A stretch of DNA of 42,545 nt, taken from NCBI GenBank assembly GCA_004124405.1, contig SCKP01000003.1, positions 22,226 to 64,770 on the forward strand, written 5' to 3'. Made by a program: the position numbers and the translations under genes. The notes beneath the pieces were generated by a model. That model saw nothing but the letters and a program-made list of their open reading frames with translations, ran no database searches and had not been told where the DNA came from. Numbering within the stretch: position 1 is the first letter of the stretch; each line of letters starts with the position of its first letter. This DNA comes from Fidelibacterota bacterium. Its GTDB lineage: Bacteria; Fidelibacterota; Marinisomatia; SCGC-AAA003-L08; D37C17. Positions 23,801 to 40,335 of the stretch are shown piece by piece.

Positions 23801-24427
23801 TTATAGATTGATTCCTGAAAAGGCTAAATAGGCCATTGAAAGCAGCCCCGTTAGAATCATGGTTATTCCCAGGCCTTTTAATCCGTCTGGGATATTGGAA
23901 TATTTTAGTTTAAATCTAATGGCTGCCATTGAAATAATTGCCAATGCAAATCCCGCTCCGGAACTTACACCAAAAACAGCCGATTCACCAAAATCATATC
24001 CACGTTCACTCATAAATAATGAGGCGCCAAGAATCGAACAATTCACAGCAATAAGCGGTAAAAATATTCCCAATGAATTATACAATGCAGGACTGAACTT
24101 ATCCAAAAGCATTTCTACCAATTGAACCATGGCAGCTATGGTAGCAATAAAAGTGATAAATGAAAGAAAACTAAGATCAACCATCGCTAAAGAAGGGACT
24201 CCAACCCACGACAGGGCGCCTTCATTAAGAAAAAATTCTTTTATTAAATAATTGAGAGGAACAGTAATGCCATTTACAAAGATAACTGCAAATCCAAGGC
24301 CAATTGATGCTTCGATCTTTTTTGAAATTGCCAGAAACGAACACATCCCCAGGAAATAAGAAAGCAGGATATTCTCAATAAATATTGCCTTAGTTGCTAA
24401 ACTTAAATAATGTTCAAGTAATTCCAT
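23801..24427 (-). CDS. nqrE: Na+-NQR subunit E
   Basis: NqrE is a six-helix membrane subunit that, with NqrD, holds an iron centre and forms part of the sodium path. The sequence shows [20 protein letters not shown] near the start with the conserved Cys, and [15 protein letters not shown] in the second half with the matching Cys: the pseudo-symmetric Cys pair of the NqrD/E and RnfA/E family. I choose ATG 24427 ([16 protein letters not shown]), which fits the family and lies one base past the nqrD stop; the longer frame begins at a TTG at 24439 inside nqrD. That gives 208 residues, slightly longer than the common 198. Confidence 0.95.
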
Positions 24428-24428
24428 A

Positions 24429-25055
24429 TCAATTCTCAATATAATGGGTATATGTTCTTTGTACCCATATAATCAGTCCCAAAATGATAAATGCTCCCGG
24501 AGCAAGTAACATCAGACCATTATTCACATACCACCCCCCATTTTCTAAATAGATGGAAGCAGGCATTACAGCATAATTAAACAAAGTCCCACTACCTAAT
24601 AATTCCCTGAATGTTGCAACAATAATGAGTACTGAACCATACCCTATTGCATTGCCCAATCCATCATACATAGCATCCTTATAATTATTTTGCATGGCAA
24701 AAGCTTCGGCTCTACCCATAATTATGCAATTGGTAATAATTAATCCCACAAAAACGGATAACTGTTTACTTATATCGTATAAATATGCTTTCAATATTTC
24801 ATCAATAAGTATCACCAATGAAGCAATAACCGTAAGCTGAACAATAATTCTAATTTTCCCGGGGATACCCTTTCTCAAAAGTGAAATAATTACATTTGAG
24901 CATACCAAAACAAAAGCCAATGCTAATGACATTACCACAGCCTGCTCCATTTTCACCGTTATAGCAAGCGCTGAACAAATACCTAATATTTGTTTAGTAA
25001 TTGGGTTGTTATCAACCATTGGATCAGAAATAATTGCTTTGGCTTTCTTATCCAT
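24429..25055 (-). CDS. nqrD: Na+-NQR subunit D
   Basis: NqrD is the partner of NqrE in the membrane core. The 208-residue, six-helix protein has [24 protein letters not shown] near the N-terminus and [19 protein letters not shown] in the middle, supplying the two cysteines of the family. [25 protein letters not shown] is the typical long loop and fifth helix. The start ATG at 25055 shares its A with the nqrC stop (TGATG), implying coupled translation. nqrE follows after one base. Confidence 0.96.
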
Positions 25056-25789
25056 CAGTTTGTCCTATTATTTTTCATATATGGTTCATATCTCAGCAAA
25101 TCTCTTTTCAAAAAATCAGAAACACCTTTGGAAGTGATAGTTGCACCGCTGATACCATCTACTCCATGATTTAGACCATCGCCAGATAATACATCATTAG
25201 CCTTTCCTTTAACCACTTTAATAGAGACCATCTTGCCTGATTTATCAATTATTTGCTTACCAACAAAATTGTTTTGAAACCATTTCTTTTCTACCTCTCC
25301 CCCTAATCCTGGAGTTTCACCATGCTTATAAAATGTTATCCCCATTACCGTATTTAAATCCTTTTCGAGGGCAAAATAGCCATATAAAGTGCTCCATAAT
25401 CCTTTACCTGAAATTGGAATAATAAATGCTTCAGGTTTTGAGGATTTGTAGGCAGGCAGATATTCAACATTATCTATAAAATAATTTAGCTGTCCAGTTG
25501 ATTTATTTTGTACGGATTCCATATTTTCAGAGGCAATATTGGCAGCAATATCCCCATTGAGCTTAAGAATAACATTGCGGATGTTACTTTTATACTCCTC
25601 CATTATTGCATCAGCATTCATTAGAGTCACATCCTTGCCAATACATTTTAAAATATTCTTCTTTCTATCGAGCTCCACATTGAATTCTTGAAGTTCTTTT
25701 AATTGCGTAGATGCCAATGCCAGTAGCAAACTAGCTACAATGGTTATGATGCCGATAAATTTAAAAGTGTAAAAATTACTATGCTGCAA
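25055..25789 (-). CDS. nqrC: Na+-NQR subunit C (covalent FMN)
   Basis: NqrC carries FMN bound to Thr by a phosphodiester bond; the target motif is [13 protein letters not shown] with Thr217 as the expected attachment site. The N-terminus has one membrane helix (about 9-28). The FMN-binding domain contains [17 protein letters not shown] and [19 protein letters not shown], both family hallmarks. Length is 244 residues. The start appears to be TTG at 25789, overlapping nqrB by 11 nt: no ATG or GTG occurs before the membrane helix and no clear ribosome site is seen, so expression may depend on coupling. apbE at the end of the operon encodes the flavin transferase. Confidence 0.93.
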
Positions 25790-26930
25790 ATCGTTTCAAC
25801 CGTTGTTTAATATGAGATTTCATGACAAAATAATCTATGAGGGGTGAAAATGCATTTGCAAATAAAATCGCCAACATCATTCCCTCAGGATAGGCAGGAT
25901 TTATGGCTCTGATAATAACACACATAAATCCGATTAGTAAACCATAAATCCAGCGGCCCCGGTCTGTTTGGGCGGCAGAGACAGGATCTGTTGCCATGAA
26001 GACCAGTCCGAAAGCAAAACCTCCCATGACCAGGTGAAATTCAGCCGGAAGAAATAACATGGGATTTGAACTGGCTACTGCTTCACCTAAAACATTGGTG
26101 AGTTTAGCTGTTAACACCATGCCCAATAATGTCCCAGCCATTATCCGCCAGTTACCAATCCGGGTGATGAGTAAAAATGCAGCGCCTATTAAAATTGCCA
26201 GGGTGGAAGTTTCCCCAATAGAACCGGGAATAAATCCATAGAACATATCCCACCAATTAAATTGATTTCCTAATAATTCTAATGCCTGGCTGCCCTGTTG
26301 TGAAGATGCTTGCAGTAAGGGTGTGGCCTGTGAAATTCCGTCAACCGTCCAAACTCTGTCCCCTGAAATTGCTCCGGGATAAGCAAAAAAAATGAATGCC
26401 CGTGCCACCAGAGCGGGATTGAATATATTATAGCCTGTCCCCCCAAATATTTCTTTGCCGATAACAACGCCGAACGTAGTGGCAAGGGCTACCATCCATA
26501 ATGGAATTGTGGGGGGCATGATTAAAGGAATCAGCATCCCCGTTACGAGGAACCCTTCATTAATCTCATGTTTTCTAACAACCGCAAAAATCATTTCCCA
26601 GAACCCGCCAACAGTATAGGATACCAATATTATTGGCAATACTATTTTCAATCCTACCAAGAAATTATCCCTCAATTCGCCATTTGGATTCATTTGATAG
26701 CCCACATTGAAAATACCAAATAATAATGCTGGGAGCATGGCAATCACCACAAATGACATCACTCGTTTTAAGTCTACAGCATCACGAATATGCGGTCCAT
26801 TTTTGGTTTTGTCTGCTGGTGTAAACAGAAATGTATCTGCCATTTCATAGAGAGGATAAAATTTGGCATATTTCCCATTACCTATAAAATTGGGCTCAAC
26901 TTTATCTAATAAATTGCGGAGGAATTTCAT
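25779..26930 (-). CDS. nqrB: Na+-NQR subunit B (covalent FMN, riboflavin site)
   Basis: NqrB is the large membrane subunit that couples electron flow to Na+ transfer and binds ubiquinone. It has about ten helices, plus GTGYNIFNPALVARAFIFF and MATDPVSAAQTDRGRW. The flavinylation segment is GSIGETSTLAILIG, with Thr243 (counting from ATG 26930) at the position of the FMN-linked Thr of Vibrio NqrB. I choose ATG 26930 (MKFLRNLLDKVEPNF), which matches the usual start and has an AGGA about 5 bases upstream; the frame could extend to 26951 but only into nqrA. That gives 383 residues. A proline- and glycine-rich loop near 185-220 is typical. Confidence 0.96.
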   Translation of the reverse strand: MKFLRNLLDKVEPNFIGNGKYAKFYPLYEMADTFLFTPADKTKNGPHIRDAVDLKRVMSFVVIAMLPALLFGIFNVGYQMNPNGELRDNFLVGLKIVLPIILVSYTVGGFWEMIFAVVRKHEINEGFLVTGMLIPLIMPPTIPLWMVALATTFGVVIGKEIFGGTGYNIFNPALVARAFIFFAYPGAISGDRVWTVDGISQATPLLQASSQQGSQALELLGNQFNWWDMFYGFIPGSIGETSTLAILIGAAFLLITRIGNWRIMAGTLLGMVLTAKLTNVLGEAVASSNPMLFLPAEFHLVMGGFAFGLVFMATDPVSAAQTDRGRWIYGLLIGFMCVIIRAINPAYPEGMMLAILFANAFSPLIDYFVMKSHIKQRLKRFAA

Positions 26931-26931
26931 T

Positions 26932-28290
26932 TTATCCTTCTGCCTCTGCAAAATCTAAACCATCCTGGATAATTCCAGTAATATCCATTTTTGAAGCATC
27001 CGAAAAAGAGCATAATGCAAAATCCTCAGGATCACATTCATAAATTCCCAATTGCTCCATGGTTTCAATATCATTAGCAATAATGGATTTTATTAACATA
27101 GTGGGAAGAATATTTAAGGGCATCACTTTTTCAATAGCGCCGATGGGTAAAATTGCCCGTTTGCTGCCATTCATAGAAGTGGTGAATACTTGCTCTCTTT
27201 TGGGCAATATTTTAGATAGAAATGTATTGGAAAGAGAATACTTACTAAAACCGGGAGAAATCCACCCCATGAACACTCTTTTCGGCATATTTGGAATTAC
27301 CGTTATGGATTCATGGTAAAACCCTATAGCATTATCCATATTTGAAATAGACCCCGTAAGCACATCTCCGGATATAATACGAGCGCCTGCTTCCAAATTA
27401 TTATTGGAAAGAATCTGCGAAATTATTGTCCCACGATTCACGGTATAGTGTTGTTTTTCCGAGACAGCGCTACCGGCAACCGTTATAATTTTTTTATAAT
27501 CCACTTTACCTGTTAAAAATAATTTTCCAATTGATATTACATCCTGAAGAGAAATATACCAAATGGAATCATCTTTATTTTTAATGGGGTCAATATGAGC
27601 TACATGCACTCCCACGTTACCAGCAGGATGTGGCCCAGAATACGTGTGCCGCTGCACATTGCTTAATTCTACTAATTTGGAATTAGAAATATTTTTAGGG
27701 CTCACCAAATTGATAGCGCCATTGGTCAATGATTGAAGTACATCTATCCCCGCTTGCATAATATCAAGTGGAGTTTGTTCAAGCACTATTTCTACGTCAA
27801 CTGCAAACGACGCTGTGGACATAGTAGAAATAAAAATGGACTTGGGAGGTTTACCAGGTTCAGCAATTTTGGAAAATGGTCGGCGCCTTATAGTCGGCCA
27901 TAGGCCAGATGAACATAAAATAGAAATTATCTTTTCCGCGGCTAACCCTGATAATTCATCTGGAGCGAATGATTCAAATGTGATTTCCTCTGCATTATCA
28001 TCAACAGCAATTTCTACTATTTCAATCCGCCTTCTTTCACCAAAGACAATGTTTTCTACCCTGCCACCGGCAGATGAGGTGAACATGATTTCAGGGTGGT
28101 TTTTATCGAAAAATATGGGAGAACCCTTTTTGACACTATCGCCCTCTTGCACCAACAATTTTGGTTTAACACCGGGGAATTCCACCGGATGGAGCCTCAC
28201 AATGGTGCCATGATTAATAGCGCCTAATTGCTTGGCCGGTTTCCCAACTAATTTTAAATCATGTCCCTTTTTGATGCGGATATCTGCCAT
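26932..28290 (-). CDS. nqrA: Na+-NQR subunit A
   Basis: NqrA is the soluble cytoplasmic subunit of the sodium pump, related to RnfC but without its ferredoxin clusters. The protein starts DIRIKKGHDLKLVGKPA and contains VKPKLLVQEGDSVKKGSPIFFDK, a lipoyl-like half-barrel, then TSSAGGRVENIVFGERRRIEIVEI and the HPAGNVGVHVAHIDPI loop. The C-terminal domain keeps GFYHESITVIP and ends with ECDPEDFALCSFSDASKMDITGIIQDGLDF. The 452-residue length is standard. It opens the nqrABCDEF-apbE run; the thioesterase gene ends 12 bases upstream, so the promoter may lie further up. Confidence 0.96.
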   Translation of the reverse strand: MADIRIKKGHDLKLVGKPAKQLGAINHGTIVRLHPVEFPGVKPKLLVQEGDSVKKGSPIFFDKNHPEIMFTSSAGGRVENIVFGERRRIEIVEIAVDDNAEEITFESFAPDELSGLAAEKIISILCSSGLWPTIRRRPFSKIAEPGKPPKSIFISTMSTASFAVDVEIVLEQTPLDIMQAGIDVLQSLTNGAINLVSPKNISNSKLVELSNVQRHTYSGPHPAGNVGVHVAHIDPIKNKDDSIWYISLQDVISIGKLFLTGKVDYKKIITVAGSAVSEKQHYTVNRGTIISQILSNNNLEAGARIISGDVLTGSISNMDNAIGFYHESITVIPNMPKRVFMGWISPGFSKYSLSNTFLSKILPKREQVFTTSMNGSKRAILPIGAIEKVMPLNILPTMLIKSIIANDIETMEQLGIYECDPEDFALCSFSDASKMDITGIIQDGLDFAEAEG

Positions 28291-28813: not shown

Positions 28814-29278
28814 TCATTTGATTAATACGGGGATAAATTTTTTAAATAAATCCCAATTATTTTCCCATTCAGGATTCAGAATATTTAACCCAAAACGGCG
28901 CTCCCAATTTGATGTGCCCTGTGCATGATGTTCTATATAGGCTTTTCCACCATCTTTCTTACTCGCAATCCAATATCGTAAACTTTGTATTTTTGAAGGA
29001 GACCCCAACCATACAAAAATAACATATTGATTTTTTACAAACTCAGCCCATGATTCGTTATTCTTTCTCAAATTAAACGATTTTGATCTATCAGGGTGAC
29101 AAGCTTTTACTTGAATATGGTCCAAATGCTTACCGACCTTTGCCCCAATTTGAATATCATCATCTGAAAAGATTTCAGGTAAAAGTGAATTAGGAATACC
29201 GCGTTTAGAAAGTTCTGCGGCAACATTAAGTTCTCCAGCATGACCCCCTAATTTTTTAATCCATTGTGGTGTTCTCAT
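28814..29278 (-). CDS. Uncharacterised protein, possible PD-(D/E)XK nuclease-like fold
   Basis: I do not recognise a named family for this 154-residue protein. Visible features are GELNVAAELSKRGIPNSLLPEIFSDDDIQIG followed by KHLDHIQVKACHPDRSK. The pattern of Glu16 in a first helix, an acidic stretch at 39-41 and Gln-Val-Lys at 56-58 resembles the E...D...(E/Q)xK core of restriction-endonuclease-like folds such as archaeal Holliday-junction resolvase or DUF4365-type proteins. The rest is Trp-, Lys- and Asn-rich with WLGSPSKIQSLRYWIASKKDGGKAY. No methylase, toxin or phage gene is nearby, and it sits between the nqr and nuo operons. The start ATG at 29278 is the first in the frame. Function is unassigned; the nuclease idea is a guess. 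Confidence 0.5.
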   Translation of the reverse strand: MRTPQWIKKLGGHAGELNVAAELSKRGIPNSLLPEIFSDDDIQIGAKVGKHLDHIQVKACHPDRSKSFNLRKNNESWAEFVKNQYVIFVWLGSPSKIQSLRYWIASKKDGGKAYIEHHAQGTSNWERRFGLNILNPEWENNWDLFKKFIPVLIK

Positions 29279-29319: not shown

Positions 29320-30786
29320 TCACCCGCTCCAGAGGTTAATAGATTTTTCAATAAAGCCAATAAGAGGTTCCCAATAAATAAAGAAGAGAATGTTCTGGGC
29401 AGAAAATAATATAATAGACCAATTTACAACCGGGTGAGCTTCAATTTTATTTACCTCACCTTCTACATCGACCAGGTACATACTTTTGATAATTTTAAAA
29501 TAATAGTATAGCGAGACCACTGAATTTAAAATAGCAACCACAGCCAGCCAGTAGAATTGTTGATGTTTAAATAACTCAGCAAAGATATAAAATTTTCCTA
29601 CAAATCCAGCCGTTGGCGGCAAACCGGTAAGGGAAATGAGTGTGAGCGCCATGAAGGCACATAGAACCGGGTTTTTCCTGCTCAGCCCATCCCAATCGTT
29701 AATATGATGGGCATTAAGTTTATTGGAGGCAAATATAGCCATGTAAAAGGCGGAGAGATTCATAAAGAGATAAATAAAAAGGTACAGCATGATAGCGCGT
29801 ACTGCGTCAGGGCTGATTATGGCAAATGCCATCAACATAAAGCCTACATGTGAAATAGTGGAATACGCCAGCAATCTCTTTACATCTTCCTGCTGAACTG
29901 CCAGCAGGTTGCCCAGGGTCATGGTTACGGCTGAGGCTACTGCAATGAGCGTCGGCCAATTTATATTGGTTAGGGGCAAGGTGGCGCTTACGCTGCCTTC
30001 CAGGGTGAACATGGTATAGAATACACGAATCAAAATGGCAAATCCGGCTGCCTTCGGTGCTACCGATAAAAAGGCGGTAATGGGCGTAGGTGCGCCTTCA
30101 TACACGTCCGGTGTCCAGAAATGAAAGGGCACCATGGATATTTTATAGCCAAATCCCACCAGTATTAAAATAAGGGGGAAGTAAATGCTTAAAGGGTATT
30201 CAATGGCTTGCAGTGCGGCGGTAACTACTCCAATATCGGTTGAGCCGGTGATACCATAGAGGATGCTTAGTCCAAACAGCATTAATCCCGAAGCAAAGGA
30301 GCCAAAAATTACATATTTCAGCGATGCTTCATTGGATTCTTTATCATTCTTCAGCATTCCGGCCAGTATATACGATGGAATACTCACCAGCTCAATCGAG
30401 AGATAAATCATTATCAGGTTGATTGAGGATGACATCAGAAACATGCCCAGTAGAACAATTAACAGCAGGGCATTATATTCAGCCGAATAATTACTGTCCA
30501 ACTGTTTTTCATAACGGGAAATTAGGATAATGGAAAATGTACTGAGCAAAAATATCATTTTAAAAAAATGAGAGAAAGGGTCTATACTGATCATTCCCAT
30601 AAACAGGCCATGGGATTCACCATAACTCTGCCAGAGGAAGACACTCGCCAATAATATAGCGCCAAGAGACAGAGGGAAGGTATATTTCTTACAGACCGGG
30701 ATTACATCCAATACTATCACCAGCAAAATGGCTATTATAATAATCAGTTCGGGAATATAAAATGATAGACTGCTGAGGTTCGACAT
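29320..30786 (-). CDS. nuoN: NADH-quinone oxidoreductase subunit N
   Basis: NuoN is one of three antiporter-like proton-pumping subunits of complex I. The 488-residue protein has about 14 membrane helices and the family core SIELVSIPSYILAGMLK with its Glu, GYKISMVPFHFWTPDVYEGAPTPITAFLSVAPKAAGF with the key Lys, and KRLLAYSTISHVGFMLMA with a second Lys-containing loop. Start ATG 30786. It is the last gene of the nuoA-to-N run, with 41 bases to the unknown gene downstream. Confidence 0.97.
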   Translation of the reverse strand: MSNLSSLSFYIPELIIIIAILLVIVLDVIPVCKKYTFPLSLGAILLASVFLWQSYGESHGLFMGMISIDPFSHFFKMIFLLSTFSIILISRYEKQLDSNYSAEYNALLLIVLLGMFLMSSSINLIMIYLSIELVSIPSYILAGMLKNDKESNEASLKYVIFGSFASGLMLFGLSILYGITGSTDIGVVTAALQAIEYPLSIYFPLILILVGFGYKISMVPFHFWTPDVYEGAPTPITAFLSVAPKAAGFAILIRVFYTMFTLEGSVSATLPLTNINWPTLIAVASAVTMTLGNLLAVQQEDVKRLLAYSTISHVGFMLMAFAIISPDAVRAIMLYLFIYLFMNLSAFYMAIFASNKLNAHHINDWDGLSRKNPVLCAFMALTLISLTGLPPTAGFVGKFYIFAELFKHQQFYWLAVVAILNSVVSLYYYFKIIKSMYLVDVEGEVNKIEAHPVVNWSIILFSAQNILFFIYWEPLIGFIEKSINLWSG

Positions 30787-30797
30787 TTCCGTCTCCG

Positions 30798-32369
30798 TTA
30801 AATTACGGACTGCACGATTTTGATAATCCCATCCATTGCCGGGCTAATCATATCCAGTAATGGCGCCGGATAGACACCAAAAAATAAAATGAGCGCTGCT
30901 AATGGAATTATGGTGAACAATTCCCGGTGGGTAATATCCGGTAAATCCTTATAGGTTTCATTCAGTGGCCCCAGGAAAATTCTCTGATAGGCTCGTAAAA
31001 AGTAAATGGCATTCAGGAGAATTCCTAAGGTAGCAATAATAGTTAAGGTGCGGAAGACACTGAAACCACCAATAAAACACATGGCTTCACTGATAAACCC
31101 GGAAAGAGCTGGCAGACCAAGTCCTGCAAAAAATGCAAAGGCTACAAAGCCAGTATAAACCGGAACCTTGGCGCCCAAACCGCCAAATCCCTGCTGGCCG
31201 GCTAATTCCGGCTTTTCATAATCATTGGGGAATACTATCCAACGATGATGGGTTCTGTCATATAACATGCCAACCAGCAAAAACAACATTGCCGTGATGG
31301 TTCCATGGTTAAACATCTGCATGAGAGCGCCATTCATTCCAGCCTGGGCACCGGCAGGGCTGTCACTGATGGCAGCAGCAATTCCCAATAGCACATAACC
31401 CATATGACTAACCGATGAATAGGCTACCATCTTCTTCAAGTCAATTTGGGCGATAGCATTGGTAGCACCCCAGATAATGTTTATTACTCCCAGCACAGCC
31501 AGGATATAGGCAAAGTTTACCATCTCACCTGGCAGTAAGGGGTAACTGATTCGCAGGAATCCATAGGTACCCATTTTCAACAGCACACCCGCAAGAATAA
31601 CCGAAACGGCTGTGGGCGCCTCCACATGTGCCAGGGGCAGCCAGGTATGAAAGGGAACAATGGGTACTTTTATAGCAAAACCTATAAATAGGGCCATCCA
31701 AATGAGGTATTTAACGCTTAATCCCCAGAGGGTTGCATCAATACTGCCCACCGTTTGAATGAGCGTGATAAGGCTGAACGTATGTGGATCAGAGTAATAA
31801 TACAATGCCAGTAGTGCCAGCAGCATGAATACAGATCCAAATAATGTATAGAGGAAGAATTTAATGGCAGCGTACATTCGCTGTGGTCCGCCCCAGATAC
31901 CAATGAGAAAATACATGGGCAGCAGCATGACTTCCCAGAATATGTAGAAGAGGAAGAAATCCATGGATAAAAACACACCCATCATTCCGGCATCCAATAG
32001 GAGGAAAAGAGAAAAGTAGCCTAAGGCTTGTTTTTCAATTTTCCAGCTGGAAATGATGCAGATAAAAGATAGGAGAGCAGTTAATAAAACCATGGGGATG
32101 CTTAAACCATCTACGCCTAAAAAGTACTGGATGTTAAAATGCGTAATCCAATTCAATTGTACGGTAAATGGTGATTCTGTGATGCTTAAAGCCGGATCAA
32201 AATTAAGATATAAAATTCCAGCCAGGACCAGCTGAATACCGGTTGTAATTGCAGCAATCCATTTATAATAATGGGCGTTTTCTTTTCCGTACAACATAGC
32301 AAAAAACAGCATTAAAACTGCTCCGGCTACAGGTACAAATATCAACAGGGTGAGTATTGACGATTCCAT
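30798..32369 (-). CDS. nuoM: NADH-quinone oxidoreductase subunit M
   Basis: NuoM is an antiporter-like proton-pumping subunit. The 523-residue protein has FFLFYIFWEVMLLPMYFLIGIWGG with the conserved Glu, FAIKVPIVPFHTWLPLAHVEAPTAVSVILAGVLLKMGTYG with its Lys, and KKMVAYSSVSHMGYVLLGI. About 14 membrane helices are evident. Start ATG 32369, 12 bases after the nuoL stop. nuoN follows 11 bases downstream. The composition is visibly richer in G and C than the housekeeping genes on the left side of the window. Confidence 0.97.
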   Translation of the reverse strand: MESSILTLLIFVPVAGAVLMLFFAMLYGKENAHYYKWIAAITTGIQLVLAGILYLNFDPALSITESPFTVQLNWITHFNIQYFLGVDGLSIPMVLLTALLSFICIISSWKIEKQALGYFSLFLLLDAGMMGVFLSMDFFLFYIFWEVMLLPMYFLIGIWGGPQRMYAAIKFFLYTLFGSVFMLLALLALYYYSDPHTFSLITLIQTVGSIDATLWGLSVKYLIWMALFIGFAIKVPIVPFHTWLPLAHVEAPTAVSVILAGVLLKMGTYGFLRISYPLLPGEMVNFAYILAVLGVINIIWGATNAIAQIDLKKMVAYSSVSHMGYVLLGIAAAISDSPAGAQAGMNGALMQMFNHGTITAMLFLLVGMLYDRTHHRWIVFPNDYEKPELAGQQGFGGLGAKVPVYTGFVAFAFFAGLGLPALSGFISEAMCFIGGFSVFRTLTIIATLGILLNAIYFLRAYQRIFLGPLNETYKDLPDITHRELFTIIPLAALILFFGVYPAPLLDMISPAMDGIIKIVQSVI

Positions 32370-32381
32370 ATTATCCTCTAA

Positions 32382-34442
32382 TTAAAATTGTTGAATTAAA
32401 ATAATGAGCAGCAAAACTCCCAACATACCGCCAAGGAGGTAGTTCTGCACCACACCATTCTGGGTTGATTGCAAAGTCTTGCCAAAATACTGGGTTATTT
32501 TCCCAAAGCCATCCACCACTTTTTGATCCAGCCAGTTATAATCTACTTCGCCGGATTTATCAGAAAGCTTGATGGTGAGCCAACCCCAGCCATCTATAAA
32601 TTTCTGATCATAAATATCCCAATCAAGTTTTGAACATAACCAGGATAATGCCAAAAAGGGTTTGTAAATAATTATATTGTAGATTTCATCAATATAGAAT
32701 TTGTTGAAGGAAAGATTGTAGAGCTTTAATTTATTTGCCATGCCCGCTACTTTAGCCGCATCCACTTTTCTTAAGAGATAAAAGAGAACAGCCAGAAAAA
32801 TACCAATGGCAGCCACCATCAATGAAATACCCATAGCAGTATAGTGGGCATGATGAATTCCCTCTTCTACCACATGCATATCTAGTCCGGCTGCATTTTC
32901 TATCATGGGGACCGCCTCAGTAAACCAACCATGGTTATCAATAGGATTAACCGAAAGGGGCAGGGTGAAAAATAGGGCAAAACTCAATCCTGCCAGTAGA
33001 ATTAGAGGAAATGTCATCTGAATTGGTGATTCATGGATATGGGCATAAACTTTATCATTGGCAGGCTTCCCAAAGAAAGTGAGGAAAATCAAGCGGAACA
33101 TATAAAAAGCCGTTATGACGGCTGCGCCAAATCCGGCAATGGGCAGAAAGAGCGTCCATCCATGATGAAGATGGTAATAGGATAAAGTGCCAGCCAAGAT
33201 TGCATCCTTAGACAAAAATCCGGAGAAGAAGGGCACCCCGGAAATAGCCAGAGTGGCTATAAGCATAGTCCAGAAGGTTATAGGCATTTTATCCCGCAAA
33301 CCGCCCATATTTCTCATATCTTGAGGATCGGTATCATGATCTTTCAATTCATGAAGTGCATGGTGCATGGCATGGATTACGGAGCCACTGCATAAAAAGA
33401 GGCAGGCTTTAAACATGGCATGGGTAGTTAAATGGAAGAATCCAGCTTGATAAGCCCCGACCCCAAGAGCCATAATCATATAGCCCAACTGACTTACGGT
33501 GGAGTATGCCAATACCCGTTTAATATCATTCTGGGTGATAGCAATAATAGCAGCCATGATTGCGGTAATCCCGCCAACAACCGCAATAAATTCTAATGCC
33601 CCTGGTGTCAGTATTGGGAAAATCCGCACCAGCATATACACCCCGGCTGCCACCATAGTTGCCGCATGGATGAGAGCGCTTACCGGAGTGGGGCCCTCCA
33701 TGGCATCCGGCAGCCAAATATGCAGGGGGAACTGGGCAGATTTACCCACAGCGCCCATAAATACCAAAATTCCTGCAATGGTCAAGAGACCCATATTCCC
33801 GGCAAAGGCGCCATTGTGAACGCCATCAATTAATCCGTTAATCTGGAAAGTGCCTATGCTGAGGAAAAGAATCATGATGCCGATGAACATGCCGATATCT
33901 CCCACCCTATTAGTGAGGAAGGCTTTTTTACAGGCATCAGCGGCGCTCTCCTTTTCAAACCAGAAGCCAATGAGAAGATAGGAACTTAAGCCAACTAATT
34001 CCCAGAATATGTACATCATAAGGAGATTATCGGCCAGTACAATCCCATTCATAGAAAAGGTAAATATTCCCAAATAGGCAAAATAGCGGGAATAACGAGG
34101 ATCACCTTTCATGTAGGCTACAGAATAAAAATGTACCAGAAAGGAAATTAGAGCGACAACAAGGAGCATAATTGCCGCTTCATTATTAATAAGAAAACCT
34201 AGATTCACGCTGAAACTTCCGGTACTAAACCAGGGGACAGACGTTTCTAAAATTGGCCCGCCTGTATCTACGAATACATTTGCGAAAAAACTAACCGCTA
34301 TACCCAGCGAACTGCCAATCAGGGTTAAAGCTACCCAATGGGCAGAATTGCCAATTTTCTTTCCAAAAAATATGAGAATCACAAAGGATAGAAGCGGTAA
34401 AAATAAATTAAGTAAAGCCAGGATTGTAGAATAATTTTCCAT
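32382..34442 (-). CDS. nuoL: NADH-quinone oxidoreductase subunit L
   Basis: NuoL is the distal antiporter-like subunit with a long C-terminal lateral helix. The 686-residue protein shows LLMMYIFWELVGLSSYLLIGFWFEK, the GKSAQFPLHIWLPDAMEGPTPVSALIHAATMVAAG channel segment with its Lys and His residues, and IKRVLAYSTVSQLGYMIMA. The C-terminal region has a His-rich periplasmic loop (NAAGLDMHVVEEGIHHAHY) and the expected long amphipathic helix near the end, closing with a last membrane anchor (LLGGMLGVLLLIILIQ). Start ATG 34442, two bases after the nuoK stop. Confidence 0.97.
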   Translation of the reverse strand: MENYSTILALLNLFLPLLSFVILIFFGKKIGNSAHWVALTLIGSSLGIAVSFFANVFVDTGGPILETSVPWFSTGSFSVNLGFLINNEAAIMLLVVALISFLVHFYSVAYMKGDPRYSRYFAYLGIFTFSMNGIVLADNLLMMYIFWELVGLSSYLLIGFWFEKESAADACKKAFLTNRVGDIGMFIGIMILFLSIGTFQINGLIDGVHNGAFAGNMGLLTIAGILVFMGAVGKSAQFPLHIWLPDAMEGPTPVSALIHAATMVAAGVYMLVRIFPILTPGALEFIAVVGGITAIMAAIIAITQNDIKRVLAYSTVSQLGYMIMALGVGAYQAGFFHLTTHAMFKACLFLCSGSVIHAMHHALHELKDHDTDPQDMRNMGGLRDKMPITFWTMLIATLAISGVPFFSGFLSKDAILAGTLSYYHLHHGWTLFLPIAGFGAAVITAFYMFRLIFLTFFGKPANDKVYAHIHESPIQMTFPLILLAGLSFALFFTLPLSVNPIDNHGWFTEAVPMIENAAGLDMHVVEEGIHHAHYTAMGISLMVAAIGIFLAVLFYLLRKVDAAKVAGMANKLKLYNLSFNKFYIDEIYNIIIYKPFLALSWLCSKLDWDIYDQKFIDGWGWLTIKLSDKSGEVDYNWLDQKVVDGFGKITQYFGKTLQSTQNGVVQNYLLGGMLGVLLLIILIQQF

Positions 34443-34444
34443 AT

Positions 34445-34753
34445 TTAGCCCTGTAGGAGATCAGCATCATCTACATCCACGCTGCCTATATTTTTAAATA
34501 GATTGATAACAATTGCTAGGGCTACTGCCGCTTCAGCTGCCGCTAATACAATTACAAATATGCTGAACACATGACCATCTAAATTTTCCATTCCGCCAAA
34601 ACGGTTAAATGCGATAAAATTGATATTGGCAGAATTGAGAATCAGCTCAATCCCCATAAGGATAGCCACTGCATTTTTTCGGGTAATGACACCGTATATT
34701 CCCATGGAAAATAAAATTGCTGCAATAATGAGATAGGATTGCAGGGAATCCAT
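34445..34753 (-). CDS. nuoK: NADH-quinone oxidoreductase subunit K
   Basis: NuoK is a small three-helix membrane subunit of the proton path. The 102 residues contain the conserved GIYGVITRKNAVAILMGIELILNSANINFIAF, including Glu in helix 2, and the third helix FSIFVIVLAAAEAAVALAIVINLF with its Glu. Length is the family standard. The ATG at 34753 shares its A with the nuoJ stop (TAATG), and nuoL begins two bases after its own stop. Confidence 0.97.
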   Translation of the reverse strand: MDSLQSYLIIAAILFSMGIYGVITRKNAVAILMGIELILNSANINFIAFNRFGGMENLDGHVFSIFVIVLAAAEAAVALAIVINLFKNIGSVDVDDADLLQG

Positions 34754-35238
34754 TAGGTTCTCCTGGATAATAACGCCGCACCCATAAGGGCTGCCAACAG
34801 TAAAATTGAAATAATTTCAAAGGGAAGCAGGTACTCATTTAAAAGGAGGTTGCCAATACTGGCTACGGTGGAATCACGACTTTGCTCAGTGCCAATATGC
34901 CAAGGGGTATTAAATATAACAGCCACCTGTATGACAAAAATTGTTAATGCCCCCATACCGCCAATAAACTGGTTTTTACTGCTGGCTGCTATGCTGGGGG
35001 TATCAATGCTATTGGTGAGCATTACACCAAAAATTATTAAGACCAGAATACCGCCTACATAAATCACAACCTGGGTAGCAGCAATAAAATCTGCGTAGAG
35101 AAAAATATATAATCCGGCGGTACTAAAGAGGGTGAAAATTAATGATACAGCAGAATGAATTAAATTTGGTGAGAATACAACCCAGAATGCAGATGCAATA
35201 ACCAAAGCGGCGATGATTATAAATAGGTTCTCAGCCAT
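34753..35238 (-). CDS. nuoJ: NADH-quinone oxidoreductase subunit J
   Basis: NuoJ is a five-helix membrane subunit near the quinone end of the proton path. The 161-residue protein contains SAVSLIFTLFSTAGLYIFLYADFIAATQVVIYVGGILVLIIFGVML, the diagnostic TM3 region, and ends with EIISILLLAALMGAALLSRR. The start ATG 35238 overlaps the nuoI stop by one base, and the stop overlaps nuoK. Confidence 0.95.
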   Translation of the reverse strand: MAENLFIIIAALVIASAFWVVFSPNLIHSAVSLIFTLFSTAGLYIFLYADFIAATQVVIYVGGILVLIIFGVMLTNSIDTPSIAASSKNQFIGGMGALTIFVIQVAVIFNTPWHIGTEQSRDSTVASIGNLLLNEYLLPFEIISILLLAALMGAALLSRRT

Positions 35239-36695
35239 TAGTTTCCACTTTCCAGATTATTGAGAATTGCAGCTGTAGCATCATCCAGCTTTCCAGCCTC
35301 TGTTAAACCTGCCCGAAGATCAGCAATGACTTCTGCCCTGCTTTTGTCAGCTCTTTTTCCCGCCATAAAGATTTTCTTGGCCATGCCTCGGGTCATCTTA
35401 TCATCAATACCATTCAGTTCAGCAATCTCAAATAGAGGTAAATCTCCAGCCGGCTCTGCTGCAGCCTCTGCAGTAGATTTAGCTAGCTTTTCTGCATCAA
35501 CAGATCCGGAAGGTTCTGAGGCAGCGCTGGTAAATGAATTCAGCAATTCTTCAGCAGCGGAATCCAATTTTCCCGCATCAGAAAGAGCTTTATGGACAGC
35601 CTCCACTTTATTCTCACCAGAACGTTTAGCAGCAAGGAAAGCTTTTTTAGCAGTACCTCTTGCCATCTTATCTTCAATGACATTTAAATCTTTGATATCA
35701 AACTCTTTCTCATCTGCTATCGGTGGAGCTTCAGAAAAACTTTCCGCTTTAACAACTCCCCCTGCTTCCACTGCCGGTGCAACCGCTGCTGAAGCAGGTG
35801 CAGATAATCCATCTAAGATGGATTGAATTTCTTCAGTCATTTTTCCCGAATCACTAAGGGCCTGGGCCACATCAGCCAGGATAGCAGTTGTATCTTTATC
35901 GGAACGCTTGGCTGCCATAAATGCTTTTTTAGCAATTCCTCTACACATTTTATCAGCAATATCGTTGAAGGATTTGATTTCCAACTCACCACTGGCCGGT
36001 TTTATCGTAGCAGCGGGTTTAGCGGTTTCAGTTTTTGTTTCAACCGCAGTTGCGGCTCCCGGAGCGGGAGTCACTTCTGGCACAATCCCCATTAATTCTA
36101 CACCTTCAGAATTCATTTTTAACTTTGCATCCCGCTTTTCCAGCCATTTATCACCACCGGCATCACGGATCATATCATCCGTGGCATCGGCAAATTCAAA
36201 TATCATCCCATCCCGCTTATATTGGCTGAATTCGTAATCAATTTCATGTTTTTCTGCATTAGGGCCGCCCACCATATAAATGCATTCTTCCGGGCAGGGA
36301 AATACACAGAGATTGCAGTACATGCACTCTGACATGTCAATGGTGAAACGACTCACAATCATTTTTTTCTGAGTATCATTTGAGGTGATACCGCAATCCA
36401 CACCACTATCTTTGGGAGGCTTTATGAAATCAATTTTGATACAATCTACCGGGCAGAATTTTTCACATTGCATGCAGGCGATACAGTCATCAATATCAAC
36501 GTGCAACCGGGAACGGATGAGATTATACTCTGAATGATCAAATCCAATATTACGTTCTGGAATAGGCCACTTTTCATGGGGATACTGTAACGTTGCAACC
36601 CGTTCCTTTTTATTATTAAAATGATTCAGAGTAAGTTTCATTCCAGTAAGGAATGATTTTACTCCATATACAATATTGCTAAAATATTCACTCAT
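35238..36695 (-). CDS. nuoI: NADH-quinone oxidoreductase subunit I with a long repeat-bearing C-terminal extension
   Basis: The first ~190 residues are ordinary NuoI, the hydrophilic arm subunit with two 4Fe-4S clusters: CIACMQCEKFCPVDC at 71-85 and CMYCNLCVFPCPEEC at 124-138. NuoI normally ends near 160-190 residues; this protein is 485. From about 205 on it is Ala-, Pro- and Glu-rich and holds three repeats of about 60 residues at roughly 236-298, 330-390 and 419-483. Each has the core I-x-DKM-x-RG-x-AKKAF(or IF)MA-x-KR, followed by a helical AL-x-(D/E)-x-GK(L/M) motif. The linkers (APGAATAVETKTE, PASAAVAPAVEAGG) look like flexible tethers. The gene starts at ATG 36695, directly after the nuoH region, and its stop overlaps nuoJ. 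The frame is continuous, with no sign of frameshift. The repeat function is unknown. Confidence 0.92.
   Translation of the reverse strand: MSEYFSNIVYGVKSFLTGMKLTLNHFNNKKERVATLQYPHEKWPIPERNIGFDHSEYNLIRSRLHVDIDDCIACMQCEKFCPVDCIKIDFIKPPKDSGVDCGITSNDTQKKMIVSRFTIDMSECMYCNLCVFPCPEECIYMVGGPNAEKHEIDYEFSQYKRDGMIFEFADATDDMIRDAGGDKWLEKRDAKLKMNSEGVELMGIVPEVTPAPGAATAVETKTETAKPAATIKPASGELEIKSFNDIADKMCRGIAKKAFMAAKRSDKDTTAILADVAQALSDSGKMTEEIQSILDGLSAPASAAVAPAVEAGGVVKAESFSEAPPIADEKEFDIKDLNVIEDKMARGTAKKAFLAAKRSGENKVEAVHKALSDAGKLDSAAEELLNSFTSAASEPSGSVDAEKLAKSTAEAAAEPAGDLPLFEIAELNGIDDKMTRGMAKKIFMAGKRADKSRAEVIADLRAGLTEAGKLDDATAAILNNLESGN
35247..35990 (-). repeat. nuoI: Three tandem ~60-residue protein repeats in NuoI
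   Basis: Copy 1 spans about 35802-35990, copy 2 about 35526-35708 and copy 3 about 35247-35441. Each copy encodes the core DKM-x-RG-x-AKKAF (IF in copy 3) and a (S/T)(D/E)(S/A)GK turn followed by an acidic helix. Protein-level identity is clear by eye; the DNA copies differ, so this is an old duplication and not a recent tandem. Linkers of about 30 residues separate the copies. Confidence 0.85.
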
Positions 36696-37796
36696 TTAAA
36701 AAATCAGCTCCCATAAACTAACAAATAATAAATTGACCAATGCAAATGGAATAAAGATCTTCCAGCAGAGATACATGAGCTGGTCTACCCTTAAACGGGG
36801 AAATGTCCAGCGAATCCACATCATGATAAAAATAAGAATAACTGCCTTAAATAAAATCCAGAACAAGCCCATTGCCGGTCCATCTAAAATAAGCCATGAG
36901 TCGGGGAATATATTGAATATTTGCAAGGGAGATAGCCAGCCTCCAAGGAATACGATTGAAGCTACAATGCTAACTATCAGCATATTTGCATATTCGCTTA
37001 AAAAGAAAAGTGCCCAACGGAATCCGGAATATTCTGTCATCCAGCCGGCAACCAATTCAGATTCAGCTTCCGGTATATCAAAAGGAGTACGGTTGGTCTC
37101 CGCAATTGTTGAAATATAGAAAATAAAAAAAGCTAAAAAGGTGAAAGGACTGTGAAAAATAAACCAGCGATGATCAGCCTGCCATTGAACAATATCACCT
37201 AAATGTAAACTTCCAGTTACAAGCACAACTAAAAGCAAAGACAAACCAATTGGAATTTCATAACTAATAATCTGAGCCGCCGCCCGCATAGATCCATACA
37301 AGGACCATTTATTATTGGAAGACCATCCAGCAAGAATGACACCGATAACACCAATGGAACTCATGGCAAAAATATAAAATATACCTATATTAAAATCTGA
37401 AATAACAATATTTTGTGCAAAAGGAACGCCAATAAAGGTAAGAAATGCTCCTGTGAAAATAATAAATGGGGCAAGAATCATTAAGAATTTGTCTGCATTA
37501 TTGGGGAGAATATCTTCCTTCACCAATAACTTAATGGCATCAGCAAGCGTTTGACCAATGCCGCCCCAAAATTTCTTTCCACCCTTAAAGCCGAATATTC
37601 CCACTTCCATGGGACCTAATCTATCCTGCATGAAGGCGGATATTTTTCGTTCAAAATAGACAGCTACGAGAGCATTCACAGCCATAATTAAAAATATTAC
37701 GGTACCGCCTATTAGGGTAACAACTGGTAGTATTACTGCTATATCCAGATTAAAGGATGAAAAAGATTTTACCAATGAATCGAGAATGGATGTCAT
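36696..37796 (-). CDS. nuoH: NADH-quinone oxidoreductase subunit H
   Basis: NuoH is the membrane subunit forming much of the quinone chamber and the link to the hydrophilic arm. The 366-residue protein has about eight helices. Conserved segments are FERKISAFMQDRLGPMEVG, GIGQTLADAIKLLVKEDILP, FIFYISTIAETNRTPFDIPEAESELVAGWMTEYSG and WIRWTFPRLRVDQLMYLCWK. Start ATG 37796 overlaps the nuoD stop as ATGA. Its stop is at 36696-36698, immediately before the nuoI ATG. Confidence 0.97.
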   Translation of the reverse strand: MTSILDSLVKSFSSFNLDIAVILPVVTLIGGTVIFLIMAVNALVAVYFERKISAFMQDRLGPMEVGIFGFKGGKKFWGGIGQTLADAIKLLVKEDILPNNADKFLMILAPFIIFTGAFLTFIGVPFAQNIVISDFNIGIFYIFAMSSIGVIGVILAGWSSNNKWSLYGSMRAAAQIISYEIPIGLSLLLVVLVTGSLHLGDIVQWQADHRWFIFHSPFTFLAFFIFYISTIAETNRTPFDIPEAESELVAGWMTEYSGFRWALFFLSEYANMLIVSIVASIVFLGGWLSPLQIFNIFPDSWLILDGPAMGLFWILFKAVILIFIMMWIRWTFPRLRVDQLMYLCWKIFIPFALVNLLFVSLWELIF

Positions 37797-38932
37797 CTGT
37801 CAATCTCTCCCAGTACAATATCCAGGCTGCCTAAAATGGCAATAACATCTGAGATCATCCATCCCTCAGCAATTTCACTTAGGACTGCCAGATTGGAAAA
37901 AGCCGGAGAGCGCATTTTAACCCGAAGTGGAATATTTTTCCCATTACTGATAATGTAAAAACCTACATCTCCACGAGCTGATTCGTATCTGCCATAAACT
38001 TCGCCCACCGCAGGCCGTATCTTTTTTGGTATTGCCTCATGCACATCTCCATCAGGAAGCTGGGCACAGGCCTGGCGGATAATTTTACCTGACTCCCGCA
38101 TCTCCAGCACTCGAACATAATAACGATCCCAAGTATCCCCTATTGTACCCATTGTGCCCTTACCCAGCGGCACATCAAAATCTAATTTATCATAAATGGA
38201 ATATGGCTCATTTTTACGCAGATCAAAATTAACGCCACTGCCACGGAGACTGGGGCCAGTAACACCAAAATTTATCCCCACTTCCGCTGGAAGGACACCC
38301 ACATCTGCGGTGCGTTCAATAAATATTTTATTGTTGCTCAACAGGTTATTAAATTCATCCATCTGAGGATCAAAGTAATCCAGGAATTCCAAAGTTCTCT
38401 CTACAAATTTAGGTGGTAAATCATGGGATACACCGCCGGGCCAGATATAATTGTATAACAGGCGGGCACCGCAGAGGGCTTCAAATAAATCCAGGACTCT
38501 TTCCCGGTCACGGATGGCCCAGGTAAAGGGGGTTATTGCGCCCACATCCAATCCAAATGTTCCCAGAGCCACCAAGTGGCTGGCTATGCGCTGTAATTCT
38601 GCAATGATTACACGGATATATTCCACTCGTTCTGGAATTTCAATATCCAGCAGTTTTTCAACCGTAATAGAAAAGGCATGGTCCATGTGCATGGAGGCCA
38701 GATAGTCACAGCGGTCAACAAAGGGAACAATTTGCTCATATGATAACTTTTCACAGTGTTTTTCAAAACATCTGTGCAGATATCCGATGACTGGTTCTAT
38801 TTTGGATACGATTTCTCCATCGGTGTGAATTTTCAAACGCAATACACCATGAGTACTGGGATGCTGAGGTCCCATATTCAGGATCATTTCACCAGTTTCC
38901 AAAACTGATTTATCTATGGCTTGCTCCTCCAT
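37793..38932 (-). CDS. nuoD: NADH-quinone oxidoreductase subunit D
   Basis: NuoD forms the quinone-binding pocket with NuoB and descends from the [NiFe] hydrogenase large subunit. Key blocks are MGPQHPSTHGVLRLKI, GYLHRCFEKHCEKLSYEQIVPFVDRCDYLASM, TGPSLRGSGVNFDLRK and VYGRYESARGDVGFYI. The metal-binding Cys pairs of hydrogenases are absent, as expected for complex I. I choose ATG 38932, which shares its A with the nuoC stop (TAATG); the open frame reaches a TTG at 38941 within nuoC. That gives 379 residues. C and D are separate genes, unlike the fused nuoCD of Escherichia coli. Confidence 0.97.
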   Translation of the reverse strand: MEEQAIDKSVLETGEMILNMGPQHPSTHGVLRLKIHTDGEIVSKIEPVIGYLHRCFEKHCEKLSYEQIVPFVDRCDYLASMHMDHAFSITVEKLLDIEIPERVEYIRVIIAELQRIASHLVALGTFGLDVGAITPFTWAIRDRERVLDLFEALCGARLLYNYIWPGGVSHDLPPKFVERTLEFLDYFDPQMDEFNNLLSNNKIFIERTADVGVLPAEVGINFGVTGPSLRGSGVNFDLRKNEPYSIYDKLDFDVPLGKGTMGTIGDTWDRYYVRVLEMRESGKIIRQACAQLPDGDVHEAIPKKIRPAVGEVYGRYESARGDVGFYIISNGKNIPLRVKMRSPAFSNLAVLSEIAEGWMISDVIAILGSLDIVLGEIDR

Positions 38933-39417
38933 TAATCCCAATATGTTTTATCTTTAGGTACAGGCATACCGTGATAGTAATCAGGCTCTTTGTAATCTTT
39001 CCGCAGGGGATAGCCTTCCCAATCTTCGGATAATAAAATCCGTTTTAAATTGGGATGGCCTTCGAAAATAATTCCCATCATATCAAAGGCTTCACGCTCA
39101 TGCCAGTCCGCAGTCTGCCAGAGGGAAGTTACTGAGGGGATTGCTGTGCCATCTTCAGTTTCCACCCTCACTTCAAGGTAATGCTGCTTAATCAGGGAAT
39201 AGAAATTGTAAGCTGCGCCATAGGTCTTATTATCACCCTTATCATAGGAGGAGATACACATAAGATAATCAAAATCCAGCTCGGATTCATTTTTTAGTAA
39301 TGTGGAAACTTCACTCCAATTATCAGGTGAGACCAGGATAACTTCTTTCCCTTCAATTGTTGAGGATTTACCAGCAGCCTTCGATTCAACATATTTTATA
39401 ATATCATCAAAAGTCAT
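38932..39417 (-). CDS. nuoC: NADH-quinone oxidoreductase subunit C
   Basis: NuoC is a small subunit of the hydrophilic arm. The family signature appears as WHEREAFDMMGIIFEGHPNLKRILLSEDWEGYPLRKDY at about 108-145. The N-terminal half has the usual alpha-beta fold (DFDYLMCISSYDKGDNKTYGAAYNFYS). The 161-residue length is typical of unfused NuoC. Start ATG 39417 lies one base beyond the nuoB stop; it is translationally linked to nuoD. Confidence 0.95.
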   Translation of the reverse strand: MTFDDIIKYVESKAAGKSSTIEGKEVILVSPDNWSEVSTLLKNESELDFDYLMCISSYDKGDNKTYGAAYNFYSLIKQHYLEVRVETEDGTAIPSVTSLWQTADWHEREAFDMMGIIFEGHPNLKRILLSEDWEGYPLRKDYKEPDYYHGMPVPKDKTYWD

Positions 39418-39418
39418 A

Positions 39419-39913
39419 TTAGGCCTGTTTCCTCAGGGGAGTTTCAGTTTTGATTTTTTTCTGGAGCTCCAATAATCCTTGTAAAAGGGCTTCAGGCCGG
39501 GGTGGACAACCGGGAACATACACATCAACAGGCACCACCAGGTCTACACCCTTGAGCACATGGTAGCCATACTGCCAGTAGGGGCCGCCGCTATTAGAGC
39601 AGCTTCCCATTGAGATAACATACTTAGGATCGGCCATCTGTTCAAATAATCGTTTTACCCGTTCTGCCATTTTCAAGGTTACTGTGCCGGCTACGATCAT
39701 CACATCAGACTGCCGGGGTGTTGCCCGGGGCATAGCGCCAAACCGTTCCAAATCATGACGGGGGGCAGCCGTTGCCATCATTTCAATGGCACAGCATGCC
39801 AAGCCAAACTGGAAATACCACTGTGAATTAGCGCGAGACCAATTAATAAGGGTATCCAGTTTTTCTACCACAATATTATCTTTGTCAAAGCGTTCTAATA
39901 ATGTCGCATCCAT
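39419..39913 (-). CDS. nuoB: NADH-quinone oxidoreductase subunit B
   Basis: NuoB holds the terminal 4Fe-4S cluster N2 that reduces quinone. Cluster cysteines are Cys40 and Cys41 ([10 protein letters not shown]), Cys105 ([10 protein letters not shown]) and Cys136 ([12 protein letters not shown]). The 164-residue length is normal. The ATG at 39913 overlaps the nuoA stop as TGATG. Confidence 0.97.
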
Positions 39914-40335
39914 CAGCTTGTTTCTCCTTTAGATTGTAGATTGGCATAGCGCCCTTTACCGTAGCGGACATTCATTTTTACCCAGTCAAGATCACCTTTA
40001 GCCCAGACATAAACATAGCCAACCAGCAGTATAAGTACAAAAATGAATGCTTCAATAAAAGCCAGCAAGCCTAAGTCCTGGAAAACAACTGCCCAGGGAA
40101 AAAGGAATACAATTTCAACATCAAATATGAGGAAGACGAGGGCTATGACATAAAAACGGATGTTGAATTTAACCCAGGCTGAGCCTTCAGGAAGTTCGCC
40201 ACATTCATAGGAGATAAGTTTATCTCCGCCTTTATTTTTTCTTGGGGAAAGGAGGTGTTGCAGGCCAAGCGGTACCCCAATCAGTACGGCTGCTAAAACG
40301 ATGAATATTATTATAGGTAGAAAGTCCTGATACAC
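39913..40335 (-). CDS. nuoA: NADH-quinone oxidoreductase subunit A
   Basis: NuoA is a three-helix membrane subunit at the quinone end. The family signature is [45 protein letters not shown] at about 41-84, with conserved Cys, Glu and Asp. The 140-residue length is in range. The start is a GTG at 40335 ([15 protein letters not shown]); no upstream ATG preserves the family N-terminus and no strong Shine-Dalgarno is seen. It is the first gene of the nuo operon, and a candidate promoter with an inverted repeat lies just upstream. Confidence 0.93.

Follow-up and report, generated by a model that had tools for sequence, protein, structure and literature searches.

What does a long C-terminal tail do on NuoI, a subunit of complex I with electron-entry clusters, when the complex has no NuoE, NuoF, or NuoG?

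The tailed NuoI and its operon

The question is raised by the window, the whole 42,545-nucleotide stretch of DNA analyzed here, in which an ORF with an ATG start at positions 35238-36695 of the minus strand encodes a 485-amino acid NuoI. The first-pass annotation had described this protein as a NuoI with a three-repeat C-terminal extension of about 290 residues, encoded in an operon lacking nuoE, nuoF, and nuoG, and both descriptions held: the ORF is real, its tail comprises ~295 residues with three repeats of ~60 residues each, and the operon is a contiguous run of 11 genes (Table 1). Its assignment to the 11-subunit, NuoEFG-less type uses this contiguity together with NuoF scored genome-wide and NuoE and NuoG scored at the operon; a profile search found NuoF nowhere in the genome of the window (1.66 Mb, 92% complete).

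The core of the protein is that of the 23-kDa subunit of complex I, with two 4Fe-4S motifs, a ferredoxin-like core, and a place in a nuo operon. It matches Pfam Fer4 (6.3e-9) and the NuoI model TIGR01971 (1.2e-18), the NCBIfam NuoI models scoring under their curated cut-offs, and all eight cluster cysteines are invariant in an alignment of 14 homologues. The hairpin between the two clusters, whose equivalent in cyanobacterial NdhI binds ferredoxin (PMC6992706), exceeds that of solved NuoI homologues by 12 to 14 residues in phmmer alignments. Downstream of nuoN lie genes for a Na+-NQR, which can provide a separate NADH route. Between nuoN and a thioesterase gene there is also a 154-amino acid ORF (28814-29278, minus strand) with no Pfam match, whose IQVKACHPD stretch we presume to resemble restriction-type nucleases.

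It is already known that the 11-subunit complex exists and that this phylum has lost the NADH module, and alternative donors have been proposed before. In the accessible text of Getz et al. 2018 (PMC6143742), a Marinimicrobia complex I without NADH-oxidizing subunits, "nNDH," is of the same operon type as that of the window, and donors such as flavodoxin are proposed for it; that text makes no mention of a tail, of repeats, of copies on NuoC or SRPBCC proteins, or of a flavodoxin fusion. The repeat domain, its occurrence on three different proteins, and a NuoI-flavodoxin fusion were likewise not found in the databases and the mostly non-subscription literature searched, and we regard the novelty of the domain and the fusion as provisional.

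Table 1. Features of the tailed NuoI, its operon and neighborhood, and the flavodoxin fusion of a relative. Coordinates are those of the window unless a locus is named.
Feature	Coordinates	Strand	Basis
11-subunit complex I operon nuoA-B-C-D-H-I-J-K-L-M-N, contiguous, without nuoE/F/G	29320..40335	-	ORF list and profile matches
Na+-NQR genes (NqrA, B, C and two Rnf-Nqr membrane subunits), downstream of nuoN	23801..28290	-	gene matches
NuoI core, residues 1-190, two 4Fe-4S clusters (C71/74/77/81 and C124/127/130/134)	36126..36695	-	Pfam/NCBIfam matches, cysteine alignment
Extended inter-cluster hairpin of NuoI, residues ~91-117	36345..36425	-	phmmer alignment gaps versus 8qby_I, 7ar7_I
Linker 0, residues 191-236, Ala/Pro/Glu-rich, disordered	35988..36125	-	pLDDT <50 over 200-236; pairwise identity 0.42; omega 0.35-0.70
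Repeat 1, residues 237-298, predicted four-helix domain	35802..35987	-	repeat alignment, models, omega
Linker 1, residues 299-329, 58% Ala/Glu/Pro	35709..35801	-	composition, omega, pLDDT
Repeat 2, residues 330-390, predicted four-helix domain	35526..35708	-	repeat alignment, model, omega
Linker 2, residues 391-419	35439..35525	-	composition, omega, pLDDT
Repeat 3, residues 420-485, predicted four-helix domain, single-repeat model	35241..35438	-	pLDDT 97
NuoI with two tandem flavodoxins	L045:7914-9962 (= G007:C33, L022, L176)		PF00258 1.2e-43

Conservation, fold, and relatives of the repeat

The same tail occurs in independent genomes, at 70 to 87% identity over the full length of NuoI, which rules out a misassembly or frame artefact as its origin. 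It is found throughout the order of the window, in families f1, f3, f4, and f5 of Candidatus Marinimicrobia, with one to five copies of the repeat, so the extension is indeed conserved among related genomes. Most of the relatives that carry a name in the collection belong to Candidatus Marinimicrobia/Neomarinimicrobiota, and outside the phylum the search consisted of one pattern scan with the whole NuoI protein. NuoI is short (about 195 residues) in other families of the class, and in family f30 (L053 and L054, 300-368 residues) it carries a different Ala/Glu-rich C-terminal extension without repeats. A NuoI 89% identical to that of the window also appears in a genome of family f8 (contig G123:C113), where it is probably contamination of the assembly.

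The repeats begin near residues 237, 330, and 420 and share ~46-47% mutual identity. An AlphaFold model of one repeat, built from 57 related repeats, predicts four helices with a mean pLDDT of 97, and in a model of full-length NuoI the repeats are ordered (pLDDT about 75-91) and the linkers fall below 50; the latter model predicts the NuoI core poorly (pTM 0.29, shallow alignment) and was used only for the pattern of order and disorder in the tail. The models thus bear out the earlier description of helix-forming repeats on Ala/Pro/Glu tethers. Within the genus, mean identity is 79 to 84% in the repeats versus 40 to 42% in the linkers, and omega is about 0.06-0.2 in the repeats versus about 0.3-0.7 in the linkers. 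The repeats are under strong purifying selection and the linkers are not, which indicates that it is the folded modules that selection preserves. This difference in constraint between repeats and linkers, together with the retention of the tail across the order and the recurrence of the module on NuoC, makes it improbable that the tail is a dispensable or assembly- and stability-related appendage with no specific ligand, even though NuoI may carry anywhere from one to five copies and two genomes (G024 and G007) lack the repeats.

No named domain matches the repeat in Pfam or NCBIfam, the best scores (0.014 and 0.008, respectively) lying far under the cut-offs; the PDB entries matched by sequence were designed helical proteins, whose scores were weak and repetitive, and a Foldseek search of the repeat model against the PDB and viral libraries gave nothing at E 0.001, with the best match at about E 1. 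The first-pass annotation knew of no named domain with this core, and these searches agree. The core it gave, DKM-x-RG-x-AKK, is present but is a local version of the general form I-x-D-K/R-x-x-R-x-x-A-K. Its description of the repeats as basic did not survive, as repeats 1 to 3 have pI values of 4.9, 6.8, and 5.3 and net charges of -2, 0, and -1, and the Lys/Arg-rich part is helix 2 alone (KMTRGMAKKIFMAGKR in repeat 3). The first-pass annotation had likened the tail to tethered lipoyl domains, and the lipoyl and peripheral-subunit-binding arrays of E2 enzymes are likewise small folded domains on flexible Ala/Pro-rich tethers; the tail repeats differ in that their model is all-helical, no lipoyl domain was matched in Pfam, no similarity to these arrays was found, and no evidence of cofactor attachment was seen.

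One distant relationship is suggestive only, and it is drawn from profile comparison: in hhalign the repeat profile aligns with the C-terminal helical segment of GatB at a probability of 88.7% over 53 columns, sharing a weak AK-x-x-F pattern, while 37 control slices reach at most 0.7%. With the Lys/Arg-rich helix 2, this raises the idea that the repeat descends from a GatB tail and is a nucleic acid-binding domain, with tRNA or the ribosome as possible targets, that would position either synthesis or the complex close to the membrane. We consider this a long shot, since the GatB_Yqey domain (PF02637) has no match to the repeats at E values up to 10, GatB is absent among the Foldseek PDB matches listed for the repeat model (none of which falls below E 1), the related A3 module has no resemblance to GatB, there is no GatB context, the net charge of the repeats is near zero or negative, and the restriction of the repeats to NuoEFG-less complexes would be left unexplained.

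Tailed complexes, fused flavodoxins, and donor supply

Whether the tail tracks with the loss of nuoEFG depends on the unit of comparison. Per genome it fails to, as genomes of family f4 have both the tail and NuoF, and a per-complex test was used instead. The correlation per genome is loose because the same genomes hold two complex I operons, often adjacent, one an 11-subunit operon with the tail and the other a NuoF-bearing 14-subunit operon without it, and these two types match the nNDH and cNDH complexes in the accessible text of Getz et al. (PMC6143742). When the copies of NuoC and NuoI were compared operon by operon, 10 of the 13 11-subunit operons in the set proved to carry repeats, compared with none of the 14-subunit operons at 15 loci (Fisher p 2e-5, a value uncorrected for phylogeny that overstates independence, as the loci are related). 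The expected link thus holds in that repeats occur only on NuoEFG-less complexes, but not in the converse, as both NuoI and NuoC are repeat-free in some 11-subunit complexes (f7, f9, f10-f12, part of f8, and G024 of the same order as the window), and such a complex can therefore do without the tail.

A direct genetic pointer to the donor, in one lineage, is a relative from the same family as the window (G007), whose 683-amino acid NuoI carries two long-chain flavodoxins in place of the repeats. Both flavodoxin domains are complete and contain the phosphate-loop motif, they are identical to each other at 133 of 172 residues, and in the PDB they match E. coli-type flavodoxins best (2e-43). The 11-subunit operon around the fusion is intact on a 53-kb contig, and the genome additionally encodes a free flavodoxin; the fusion is known from this one genome, with an identical contig in both collections. 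In the genus of the window, PF00258 flavodoxin was not found, ruling out flavodoxin as the partner of the tail there, so the evidence of this swap would extend to ferredoxin only by analogy. The genome of the window does encode an alpha/beta pair of a 2-oxoacid:acceptor (ferredoxin) oxidoreductase, on contig G000:C14, and an acidic two-cluster ferredoxin (103-amino acid ORF), on contig G000:C40.

Our preferred reading, held tentatively and with a little less than even confidence, is that the tail consists of docking domains through which a soluble donor of low potential would reach a complex I that works without NADH. The three small helical domains may form a flexible array on the subunit that carries the electron-entry clusters, and this array could recruit and concentrate the donor beside the clusters of NuoI, such that tethered docking would do by proximity the job that NuoEFG does in the canonical enzyme. 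The donor here would be ferredoxin reduced by the 2-oxoacid:ferredoxin oxidoreductase, and in some relatives it might be flavodoxin. We favor this reading because predicted four-helix repeats (pLDDT 97) that are themselves constrained sit on linkers with pLDDT below 50, because two flavodoxins replace the repeats in G007 (L045), because among the compared operons the repeats are restricted to 11-subunit complexes, because the genome supplies both oxidoreductase and ferredoxin while the adjoining Na+-NQR can handle NADH, and because analogous precedents exist in the NdhI-ferredoxin pair and in Campylobacter. The first-pass proposal that the repeats dock a donor or a substitute input module gains from two of these points, the flavodoxins in the same position and the restriction to NuoEFG-less complexes, and from them we infer the docking itself. 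Counting against donor docking are the occurrence of the fusion in one genome, the existence of repeat-free 11-subunit complexes, the presence of the repeat on an SRPBCC protein without a redox domain, and the fact that the domain is not basic overall.

As far as their accessible texts go, the two precedents are instructive for both likeness and difference. Cyanobacterial NDH-1 also lacks NuoEFG, and ferredoxin binds the inter-cluster hairpin of NdhI, its NuoI-type subunit, and delivers electrons there; docking uses this hairpin and NdhH, and a repeat tail on NdhI is not described in the portion available (PMC6992706). Campylobacter complex I lacks NuoEF, and its electrons are thought to come from flavodoxin or ferredoxin, but there separate proteins, NuoXY, replace NuoEF, with no NuoI tail in the account available (Weerakoon and Olson 2008, cited in PMC6682613). 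Both the fusion and the tail bear on which protein directly feeds electrons to the widespread 11-subunit complex I, for which an attempt to find a shared donor protein failed, as discussed in PMC11238625. The tail repeats offer a small expressible bait with which to identify the donor in these marine bacteria, most of what is known about which comes from metagenomes.

Copies of the repeat on other proteins

In the genome of the window, the repeat is found only on NuoI. A related core motif (98% in hhalign, over 32 columns) occurs on two other proteins in sister families. About 50 genomes of families f8, f13, and f20 have one or two copies of it at the N terminus of NuoC (L079:5274-5999, L139, L141, L143, and others). 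Two to four C-terminal copies are carried by a protein of 370 to 510 residues that begins with a hydrophobic segment and contains an SRPBCC (Polyketide_cyc2-like) domain, in families f7, f8, f9, and f13 (L058, L074, L077, L083, L085, L089, and others). In the tailed order the SRPBCC protein is missing apart from one marginal match (G035, E 9e-4), and across 60 genomes it and the NuoI tail never occur together.

This distribution feeds the main rival to donor docking, in which the repeat serves as an all-purpose scaffold or adaptor and brings complex I together with further components of the membrane, such as a supercomplex, a microdomain, or a quinone- or lipid-handling partner, and does not touch the donor. 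The same core on NuoC and on a protein with a hydrophobic segment and a lipid-transport type domain speaks for such a role, as does the mutual exclusion of the SRPBCC protein and the NuoI tail, as if the two were interchangeable. We nevertheless rate it as rather unlikely, as it explains neither why the repeat avoids the 14-subunit complex in the same cell nor why flavodoxins replace it. Homotypic clustering of different repeat-bearing proteins is also unlikely in the tailed order, where most genomes have no second one.

If donor docking is retained and the copies on NuoC and the SRPBCC protein are equivalent to those on NuoI, as we infer, a broader and more doubtful extension follows, in which an undescribed mobile helical adaptor would recruit soluble carriers to the NADH-independent complex I of Marinimicrobia via NuoI, via NuoC, or in trans via the membrane SRPBCC protein, and one lineage would use permanently tethered flavodoxins instead (a "carrier-tethering" complex I).

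The repeat profile also matched close to the ends of three contigs (G005:C27, G021:C38, G017:C18); these matches resemble broken or stray NuoI tails and were rejected as new proteins. Finally, a congener genome encodes a 233-amino acid Cys-rich protein of unassigned family with one repeat of the NuoI type (L057:3037-3735, G005:C82).
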